Below are positions 18,355 to 22,340 of a stretch of 64,000 nt of DNA, piece by piece. The notes beneath the pieces are model-generated. The model saw only the letters and a program-made list of their open reading frames with translations. It searched no databases and was not told the DNA's origin. The stretch comes from Halorussus caseinilyticus (GTDB lineage Archaea; Halobacteriota; Halobacteria; Halobacteriales; Haladaptataceae). The stretch is from NCBI RefSeq assembly GCF_029338395.1, contig NZ_CP119809.1:2790001-2854000 (forward strand), in the 5' to 3' direction. The position numbers and the translations under genes are program-made. How positions within the stretch are numbered: the first letter of the stretch is position 1; the number at the start of each line of letters is the position of its first letter.

Positions 18355-19473
18355 CTAACGGTCTTCGAGCGACAGCGACGCCAGCAGTGACTCCAACTGG
18401 ACTCGCTCGTTCGCGCCCTCGGTGATTCGGTAGTCCACTTCGCCCACGCGGTCCATCAGGCGCACGGTGGCCTCGTCGTCCAAGTCGAACTCCCACACCG
18501 ACCGGTGGAGTTGGTCGATGATGTCGCCGCCCGCCATCCCCTTGTTCGTGAGCAGGTCGTCGAGGACCTTTCGCGCCTTCGTGAAGTCGCCCTCGATAGC
18601 GTGCGTGACCATCTTCTCTATCTCCTCGGGACGGGCCGTGCTGGTGATGGTGAACACCGCGTCCTCGTCCACGACTTCGCCCATCACGGCCGCGGCCTGA
18701 AGCGCGTTGATGGCCTTGCGCATGTCGCCGTCGGCGGCGTAGACCAGCGCGTCCACGCCGTCCTCGGTCGTTTCGATGTCCTCCTCGGCCGCGACCTCCC
18801 GAATCTGCTCGGCGACCCCCTCCTCGGAAATCGGGCCGAACCGAAACGTCGCGCACCGCGACTGGATGGGGTCGATAATCTTCGAGGAGTAGTTACACGA
18901 GAGGATGAACCGGGTGTTAGACGAGAACTGCTCCATCGTCCGGCGGAGCGCCGACTGTGCGTCAGAGGTGAGTGAGTCGGCCTCGTCCAAGAAGATGATG
19001 CGGTGGTTGTACCCGCCGAACGACGACCGCGCGAAGTTCTTGATGCGGTCCCGAACCACGTCGATGCCGCGCTGGTCGGAGGCGTTGAGTTCGAGGAAGT
19101 TCTGCTCCCAGTCGTCGCCGTAGAGTTGCTTGGCGATGGCGACCGCACTGGTCGTCTTCCCGACGCCCGCCGGTCCCGAGAACAGGAGGTTCGGAAGGTC
19201 GTCGCGCTCCACGTAGCGTTTCAGTCGGGCCGTGATGTCGTCGTGGCCCGCCACCTCGTCCAACGTCTCGGGTCGGTACTTCTCTATCCAAATCTCGTCC
19301 CGCCCGGCGTCGGCCACCTCGTCGGACTCGGCCGCGTCCGCTGATTCGGCCGCGTCCGCTGATTCGGCCGCGTCCGCTGATTCGGCCGCGTCCGCTGATT
19401 CGGCCGCGTCCGCTGATTCGGCCGCGTCCGCTGATTCGGCCGCGTCGTCGGCCTCGTTTTCGACCTCGCTCAT
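18355..19473 (-). CDS. rfcS: replication factor C small subunit
   Basis: 372 residues from [10 protein letters not shown]. It is the clamp-loader small subunit that opens the PCNA ring on DNA (PCNA is encoded at 51.3 kb). AAA+ motifs are Walker [21 protein letters not shown], Walker [11 protein letters not shown], sensor 1 [14 protein letters not shown] and the SRC arginine-finger motif QSRCATFRF. The N-terminus carries an extra acidic-alanine tract of six perfect 18-bp repeats (SADAAE units), not present in ordinary RfcS, which starts near [25 protein letters not shown]-like GTGTTTAAGA about 29 bases before the ATG suggests a leaderless transcript. An ATG 12 codons upstream is less likely. 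Confidence 0.96.
19328..19435 (-). repeat. 18-bp tandem repeat, six perfect copies, in rfcS
   Basis: The + strand unit is TCGGCCGCGTCCGCTGAT. It is in frame (18 = 6 codons) and encodes SADAAE blocks near the N-terminus of RfcS. Perfect identity between units implies recent expansion by slippage or recombination. Confidence 0.97.
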
Positions 19474-21171: not shown

Positions 21172-21930
21172 ATGAACGTCACTGTCGAAGTCGTCGGCGA
21201 AGGGAGCCACGACTTCGAAGTCGAGGACGCGACCTACGCCGACCTGCTGGCCGAGGTGGACCTCAGCCCTCACGAGGTGTCGGTGATGGTGGACGGCCGC
21301 CCGGTTCCCGAGGACCAACCCGTCGAGACCGACCACGTGAAGGTCCTGCGGCTCATCAAGGGCGGGAGCGAAGAAGCCGACGCCGAGCGACGAACCGGCG
21401 ACCCCGGCGTCCCGGACCGCCTCGGCGTCTCGGACCTCGACTTCGAGTTGCCCAACGCCGGGGTCGGGCCGGACCCCCTGCGACTCGCGGACCTCGCGGC
21501 CGACCCGAAGAACGACGCGCTCGTGGTGCTGTTCCAGCGCGATTATCACTCGCGGGCGTGTCGCCAGCAGGTGAAAGCGGTCGCCGACCGCTACCGGGAA
21601 TTCCGCGACCGGAGCGCCGCGGTGGTGTCGGTCCTGCCCGAGTCGAAGGGGAAGGCCCGGAAGTTCCAGAAGAAGTTTCACCTGCCGTACGCGCTGGTGG
21701 CCGACGCGGAGAAGACCGCGAGCGAGCAGTACGGCCAACCGACGCGCTTGGGCGGACTCGGCGCGCGCATCGACCTCGTGGGCCGGATGCCCGAGACGGC
21801 GGTGCTGGACGCCCGCGGCGGCGACCTGCGACTCCACGCCGTCCACCGCGGCGACAGTCCGTCAGACCACCCCTCGGTGGACGACGTGCTGGCGATGGTG
21901 GACCGGGCGCTCGAATGGGAGAGCGACTGA
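21172..21930 (+). CDS. SAMP2-like ubiquitin-fold protein fused to a peroxiredoxin-like domain
   Basis: 252 residues in one uninterrupted frame. Residues 1-65 read as the small archaeal modifier SAMP2: MNVTVEVVGE at the start, YADLLAEVDLSPHEV, DGRPVPEDQPVE, and KVLRLIKGG ending in Gly64-Gly65. In SAMP2 this is the C-terminus used for isopeptide attachment and tRNA thiolation. Here translation continues through an acidic linker into a peroxiredoxin/AhpC-like domain (about 85-250; LVVLFQRDYHSRACRQQV with a single Cys130, then RMPETAVLD). No ATG or GTG occurs in frame between residue 65 and about residue 117, so the second domain cannot easily be made alone. A GNAT gene follows with 11 bases spacing. 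Confidence 0.88.
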   Translation: MNVTVEVVGEGSHDFEVEDATYADLLAEVDLSPHEVSVMVDGRPVPEDQPVETDHVKVLRLIKGGSEEADAERRTGDPGVPDRLGVSDLDFELPNAGVGPDPLRLADLAADPKNDALVVLFQRDYHSRACRQQVKAVADRYREFRDRSAAVVSVLPESKGKARKFQKKFHLPYALVADAEKTASEQYGQPTRLGGLGARIDLVGRMPETAVLDARGGDLRLHAVHRGDSPSDHPSVDDVLAMVDRALEWESD

Positions 21931-21941
21931 CGGGACGCGAG

Positions 21942-22340
21942 ATGTCGGTCACAGTCCGCGAAGCGACCCGCGACGACCGACTCGGGGTGCGCCGGGTCCT
22001 CGACGCCGCGATGCTGGAGGTTCGCGCGAACCTCGGCGAGCGAACCGACGCCGGGGACGTGCTGGTAGCCAGCGAGGGCGACGACGCGCCGGTTCTGGGC
22101 GCGCTGGTTCTCCTAGCACCGGACGACGGCGCGCACGTCGACGCCGTGGCGGTCCGGCGCGCCCGGCGCGGGCAGGGCGTCGGGTCCGCGCTGGTCCGCG
22201 CCGCGGCGGAACGCCGCGGCCGACTCACCGCCGAGTTCGACCCGAGCGTCCGACCGTTCTACGAGTCGCTGGGCTTCGAGATTACGCCGGTCGAGGGCGA
22301 CGGGGACCGACTCCGGGGTCGCTACGACGGGGCGGACTGA
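21942..22340 (+). CDS. GNAT family N-acetyltransferase
   Basis: 132 residues from MSVTVREATRDDRLG, a classic GNAT start. Acetyl-CoA binding motif A is VAVRRARRGQGVGSALVRAA, with the Q/RxxGxG/A pattern, followed by FDPSVRPFYESLGFE, the usual motif B. The substrate amine is unknown. An in-frame ATG at 21915 would overlap the upstream gene by 16 bases and adds MGERLTGRE, so the later ATG is preferred. The close spacing to the SAMP2 fusion gene suggests one transcript. Confidence 0.85.
   Translation: MSVTVREATRDDRLGVRRVLDAAMLEVRANLGERTDAGDVLVASEGDDAPVLGALVLLAPDDGAHVDAVAVRRARRGQGVGSALVRAAAERRGRLTAEFDPSVRPFYESLGFEITPVEGDGDRLRGRYDGAD

Follow-up and report, generated by a model that had tools for sequence, protein, structure and literature searches.

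A SAMP2-redoxin gene fusion in Halorussus as a probable precursor of the ubiquitin-like modifier SAMP2

At 21172-21930 on the forward strand of the window (the whole 64,000-nucleotide stretch of Halorussus caseinilyticus DNA analysed here), a single open frame encodes a protein of 252 amino acids, beginning with an ATG at 21172 and ending with a TGA at 21928-21930. The frame carries, in order and without an intervening stop, the modifier SAMP2 (residues 1-65), a linker of about 20 residues, and an AhpC/TSA-type redoxin (Table 1). A GNAT acetyltransferase gene follows and is probably in an operon with the fusion gene. At a Halohasta locus (L099), a GNAT-like reading frame likewise comes after the redoxin, and the operon may therefore be SAMP2-redoxin-GNAT. 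Elsewhere in the window, at 19328-19446, a perfect 18-nt repeat of 6.6 copies occupies the 5' coding part of the gene for the replication factor C small subunit (reverse strand), where it encodes an (AESADA)n N-terminal tail.

Table 1. Features of the fusion gene and its downstream neighbour, in window coordinates.
Feature	Position	Strand	Basis
SAMP2 (Urm1-like ubiquitin-fold modifier) domain, residues 1-65, end LRLIKGG	21172..21366	+	NF041919, PF21965, PDB 2l32
Predicted cleavage site Gly65/Ser66 (codons ggg/agc)	21364..21369	+	LRLIKGG invariance; Ser commonest residue after Gly-Gly
Variable linker, residues 66-86, without in-frame ATG/GTG/TTG	21367..21429	+	12-50 aa among species
AhpC/TSA-type redoxin domain, residues 87-252 and stop	21430..21930	+	PF00578 53 bits, PF08534 35 bits
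Degenerate redox motif S127-R-A-C130 (family C-x-x-C)	21550..21561	+	Alignment, Halorussus motifs, ResA profile match
GNAT acetyltransferase gene	21942..22340	+	PF13508 45.6 bits; 11 nt downstream of fusion

An earlier sequence-only reading had described this protein as SAMP2 ending in Gly-Gly, continuing without a stop into a peroxiredoxin-like domain, with Cys130 as its single cysteine and with no in-frame start codon between the Gly-Gly and the second domain, and all of these points hold. Residues 1-65 score 115.9 bits against the NCBIfam SAMP2 equivalog NF041919 (cut-off 70) and 105 bits against Pfam SAMP2, PF21965 (cut-off 27), and they match the solved Haloferax SAMP2 structures 2l32 and 4hrs at an E-value of about 1e-23. 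The C-terminal LIKGG of SAMP2 is present, within LRLIKGG at residues 59-65. The free C-terminal Gly-Gly of SAMP2 is absent from the gene product, in which 187 residues follow, and would exist only after cleavage. Residues ~90-240 match AhpC-TSA (PF00578) at 53.1 bits against a cut-off of 26, and also Redoxin (PF08534). An AlphaFold2 model based on 15 sequences has a pLDDT of 59 overall, with 85-89 over SAMP2, values below 50 for residues 63-110 and a poorly modelled redoxin, and thus faintly suggests that the junction may be disordered.

A genome-wide family search found no second SAMP2 above the cut-off in the rest of the 99.7%-complete genome, where a stand-alone copy had been proposed as a check; SAMP1 and SAMP3-like genes are also present. 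Because the fusion gene is the only source of SAMP2 in this organism, free SAMP2 must almost certainly be cut from a precursor.

The same arrangement extends across the genus. A family search of 18 Halorussus species returned exactly one SAMP2 in each, and in 17 of them it is fused in frame to the redoxin. The fusion is a trait of the genus and has several separate origins elsewhere. The loci of Halorussus salinisoli, ruber, aquaticus, and marinus agree with those of the genus search; one of the 17 fused genomes (G398) is a 62%-complete assembly in which the redoxin part is apparently cut short. The idea that a sequencing or assembly error deleted a stop codon can be dismissed for all practical purposes, because 17 independent species assemblies, with differing linkers, are all open; it is refuted by them. 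In the one unfused species (G274), SAMP2 ends in KGGAV-stop and the redoxin lies in another frame, its GTG start overlapping the stop as GTGA. Since this species falls within the Halorussus clade of the redoxin tree, its arrangement is best read as a re-split of the fusion.

Such a split, together with the ATG or GTG codons found in the linkers of some species, might suggest that two proteins are made by translation, with an internal start past the Gly-Gly giving a separate redoxin and the fusion being incidental. Several fused species, like H. caseinilyticus, have no start codon in the linker, and an internal start would in any case leave the C-terminus of SAMP2 unfreed. This route is highly improbable, and it was rejected for want of a start codon in the H. 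caseinilyticus linker.

Conservation differs sharply along the fusion. The motif LRLIKGG is invariant across 16 aligned Halorussus fusions, and the linkers, 12 to 50 amino acids long, can barely be aligned. Pairwise dN/dS has a median of 0.09 in SAMP2, 0.35 in the redoxin, and 0.63 in the linker between them, values which indicate that selection maintains both domains and not the join between them.

The machinery that a precursor would require is encoded in the genome. Its desampylase scores 165.4 bits against NF041370 (cut-off 130), has an intact JAMM motif (HSH-x7-S-x2-D), and counts JAMM1 (5ld9) among its PDB relatives, while the SAMP-activating E1 UbaA scores 507 bits against NF047750 (cut-off 450). 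Desampylase occurs in 18/18 Halorussus, in each of the five genomes of other genera that carry a fusion, and in 295 of 391 haloarchaeal genomes overall. It was not found in the remaining 96, yet all of these except one retain SAMP2, and 55 of the 95 desampylase-negative genomes with a readable SAMP2 belong to a single family (f3).

Taken together, the sequence data make it very probable that the fusion is a SAMP2 precursor, cut by desampylase after Gly65 to yield mature SAMP2 and the redoxin in equal amounts. Translation gives SAMP2, Gly-Gly, linker, and redoxin as one chain. The desampylase, a JAMM/MPN+ protease, would then recognise the SAMP2 fold and cut after Gly65, freeing SAMP2 with an exposed Gly-Gly, which UbaA requires if SAMP2 is to serve in sampylation and tRNA thiolation. 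The redoxin would be released in equal amount, starting at Ser66 and keeping the linker as an N-terminal tail. In Haloferax, HvJAMM1 cleaves a linear SAMP1-MoaE fusion precisely after the terminal Gly, both in vivo and in vitro (PMC4443979). According to older work cited in PMC8832034, HvJAMM1 does not strictly require the Gly-Gly of SAMP1 to cut linear fusions, and the conservation of the Gly-Gly in Halorussus may therefore reflect the needs of mature SAMP2, not those of the protease.

The precursor model makes a prediction that could be examined across haloarchaea. If trimming requires desampylase, genomes that lack the enzyme should end SAMP2 exactly at Gly-Gly. The position of the SAMP2 stop was read in 202 haloarchaeal genomes, comprising 107 desampylase-positive and 95 desampylase-negative ones (95 of the 96 negatives; G316, with no SAMP2 match, was left out). 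Residues follow the Gly-Gly in 43/107 positive genomes and in 0/95 negative genomes (Fisher p 1e-14), either as tails of 2 to 24 residues or as a whole redoxin, and Ser is the commonest residue directly after the Gly-Gly (25 of the 43 extended SAMP2s). High-scoring SAMP2s are over-represented among the sampled desampylase-positive genomes; without the 14 genomes fetched by their match to the fusion query, the counts become 29/93 versus 0/95 (p 1e-10). The association also persists when family f3, the source of 55 negatives, is left out (p 7e-8). The correction for kinship went as far as genus and family: extensions occur in 17/37 desampylase-positive genera versus 0/20 negative ones (p 1e-4), and the association remains under permutation within families (p 5e-5) and with genera collapsed within families (p 0.0016). 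Across the sampled genomes, every extension of SAMP2 lies in a genome with desampylase; the prediction could have failed, and it held.

Short tails of 2, 3, 9-11, or 24 residues are common on SAMP2 in desampylase-positive haloarchaea of several families (for example at L063, L082, L127, L138, L143, and L026). A second ubiquitin-like protein (Ubl) of the H. caseinilyticus genome, SAMP1/MoaD-like with 86 bits to NF041918 (L254, ~1501-1788; G000:C1 near 2471414-2471700), extends 12 residues beyond its Gly-Gly (AGG-SVRPDASADTGG-stop), so trimming would be needed there too.

Two readings had been offered from the sequence alone, a JAMM-cut precursor and a permanently tagged redoxin. The first has gained good, indirect support from the sole SAMP2 copy, the invariant Gly-Gly, the unconserved linker, the missing internal start, the presence of genes for desampylase and the SAMP E1, and the restriction of post-Gly-Gly residues to desampylase-positive genomes. 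The second, in which the chain stays uncut as a SAMP2-marked redoxin, would be a hard-wired version of the yeast Urm1-peroxiredoxin conjugate. The class of partner fits, as peroxiredoxins are targets of Urm1-family modifiers both in yeast, where Ahp1 is conjugated, and in Saccharolobus (PMC7016264, PMC12625751), and SAMP2-redoxin genes, fused or in tandem, recur in several families. As the sole state, however, a permanent tag would provide no SAMP2: 17 fused species would be left without the free modifier despite strong selection on SAMP2 and its Gly-Gly. Desampylase is, moreover, retained, and the strict co-occurrence of post-Gly-Gly residues with it would go unexplained. A permanent tag is accordingly improbable. 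Cleavage may still be partial, with a fraction of the molecules staying uncut and functional.

The genomic surroundings of SAMP2 in other haloarchaea suggest how the precursor could have arisen. In many other genera, SAMP2-Gly-Gly-stop and the redoxin are separate tandem neighbours, and the tandem order probably came first, with fusion later. A redoxin tree of 57 sequences, unrooted and built by a quick method, requires the fused state to have changed four times, and strongly supported branches force at least three of these changes. Gains can be read in Halorussus, in one further genome (G142), and in a group of four (G196, G098, G061, and G017), in addition to the reversal in G274. The tree thus indicates that fusion arose independently at least three times. 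Fusions outside Halorussus all keep the Gly-Gly, and each is likewise the one SAMP2 of its genome. Loss of the stop codon after SAMP2 would be nearly harmless where desampylase already trims residues beyond the Gly-Gly, and tails and whole fusions would therefore accumulate there, but would not build up in genomes without the enzyme. Once fused, the redoxin start codon would be free to decay. A scan of viral contigs with the redoxin found no relatives, and plasmid records gave matches to the redoxin part only.

The redoxin itself has a degenerate active-site motif. Its relatives carry a C-x-x-C that is profile-matched to the C-x-x-C of ResA in the PDB; in H. caseinilyticus, the first position of this motif is Ser127 and Cys130 is the second, more conserved cysteine. 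The earlier suggestion that a peroxidatic cysteine may have been lost is therefore partly right: the first cysteine has gone, but the one that remains is the better conserved. Among 17 diverse aligned redoxins, the second cysteine is invariant, while the first has become Ser or Ala several times. Within the fused Halorussus, ten species have CRNC, CRGC, or CRKC, six have S-x-x-C (including H. caseinilyticus), and one has CRKS; the nearest relative in the redoxin tree (G147) has CRNC. A pairwise match to the peroxiredoxin 3drn, too weak to settle the matter, places Cys130 near the peroxidatic position. Against the AhpC/TSA signature P-x3-T/S-x2-C, the segment Q122-R-D-Y-H-S127-R-A-C130 has the Ser and the Cys but no Pro at -7, and matches to the SelL-related redox protein model NF040769 are weak, at 41.6 to 55.6 bits (41.6 for the H. 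caseinilyticus protein), below its cut-off of 120. In a family f4 clade of redoxins that mostly stand in tandem with SAMP2 (L148, L082, L129, L026, and L068), the first cysteine is replaced by Ala (AGQC or AGNC). Fusion as the cause of the cysteine loss was considered and dropped, as the first cysteine has also been lost in the unfused tandem clade (AGQC).

Processing of the precursor might also be regulated, with the uncut form serving as an inactive store and oxidants or the level of desampylase setting the release of SAMP2 and redoxin. This mixed state is a refinement of the precursor reading, not its opposite, and is possible, if on balance doubtful. Molybdopterin synthase in the form of uncut SAMP1-MoaE has no activity until cleavage (PMC4443979), oxidants increase sampylation, Haloferax lacking SAMP2 is oxidant-sensitive (PMC5587910), and the partner here is a redoxin. 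The motif, however, decays repeatedly among the fused Halorussus (the first cysteine is lost in six species and the second in one), so a conserved redox switch is disfavoured.

A further step, and an unlikely one, would be that the two products act together, with desampylase freeing SAMP2 and the redoxin, and with the single cysteine of the latter, Cys130, accepting the C-terminus of SAMP2 or controlling it. As a speculative part of the same idea, the step at Cys130 would involve a thiocarboxylate, an acyl-disulfide, or a persulfide. Attachment of yeast Urm1 to a peroxiredoxin needs the peroxidatic cysteine (PMC7016264, PMC12625751), and it is conceivable, though hardly probable, that Halorussus possesses an archaeal counterpart of Urm1-peroxiredoxin urmylation as a gene-encoded unit with regulated cutting. 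The findings on oxidants and on Urm1-peroxiredoxin conjugates make a redoxin partner meaningful, but they do not imply an interaction between the released products.

With respect to known systems, fusions of a Ubl to MoaE (MoaD-MoaE and SAMP1-MoaE, with the proteases HvJAMM1 and DR0402) are, by analogy, the closest working likeness of the precursor. As described in PMC4443979 and PMC8832034, they share an N-terminal beta-grasp Ubl ending in Gly-Gly, an in-frame partner enzyme, and a cognate JAMM/MPN+ protease, whose cut at the last Gly is known there and predicted here. They differ in that the Ubl in Halorussus is SAMP2, on the Urm1/ThiS side (tRNA thiolation and sampylation; SAMP2 is required for tRNA-Lys thiolation in Haloferax, PMC4048286), that the partner is a redoxin instead of a sulfur-transfer partner enzyme, and that SAMP2 has no gene besides the fusion. 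Eukaryotic ubiquitin-ribosomal protein precursors and the Caldiarchaeum ubiquitin precursor, which is cut by Rpn11, are alike in that residues after the Gly-Gly are removed before activation, but they belong to another ubiquitin lineage. According to PMC12625751, Urm1 differs from most Ubls in being synthesised in its mature form, with no proteolytic step, and the Halorussus locus would be a Urm1-type exception. The Urm1-Ahp1 conjugate of yeast and the Urm1-peroxiredoxin conjugate of Saccharolobus likewise join a Urm1-family modifier to a peroxiredoxin-fold protein, but through a post-translational isopeptide bond to lysine, whereas in Halorussus the bond is a gene-encoded linear peptide bond. 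Other fusions, namely ThiS-ThiG, Ubl-Cgi121, and Ubl-Mut7C, also place a Ubl in frame with another domain, although with different partners; these and MoaD-MoaE are among the Ubl fusions treated in the available portions of PMC1779556 and PMC2948915, which make no mention of a SAMP2-redoxin fusion.

More broadly, no report of SAMP2-redoxin fusions or of SAMP2 tails was found in the openly licensed literature, which apparently contains no description of a SAMP2/Urm1-type precursor that has a redoxin as its partner. The earlier remark that no such SAMP2 precursor is known stands to that extent, although JAMM-cut Ubl-MoaE fusions are a known precedent.

These findings bear on the biology of SAMP2, the archaeal relative of Urm1, itself a modifier that has been proposed to link ubiquitin with the sulfur carriers. 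A whole genus, one species excepted, makes SAMP2 only within a fusion. The desampylase gains a predicted role in maturation, comparable to the processing of ubiquitin precursors, and extended SAMP2s offer a natural set of candidate substrates for it. If cleavage occurs as proposed, the statement that Urm1 is produced mature (PMC12625751) would be contradicted for an archaeal relative. Finally, a redoxin gene adjoins SAMP2 in many genera, and because this partner has the peroxiredoxin fold, the class of protein modified by Urm1 in yeast and Saccharolobus, gene order supports the view that the link between Urm1 and redox proteins is old.
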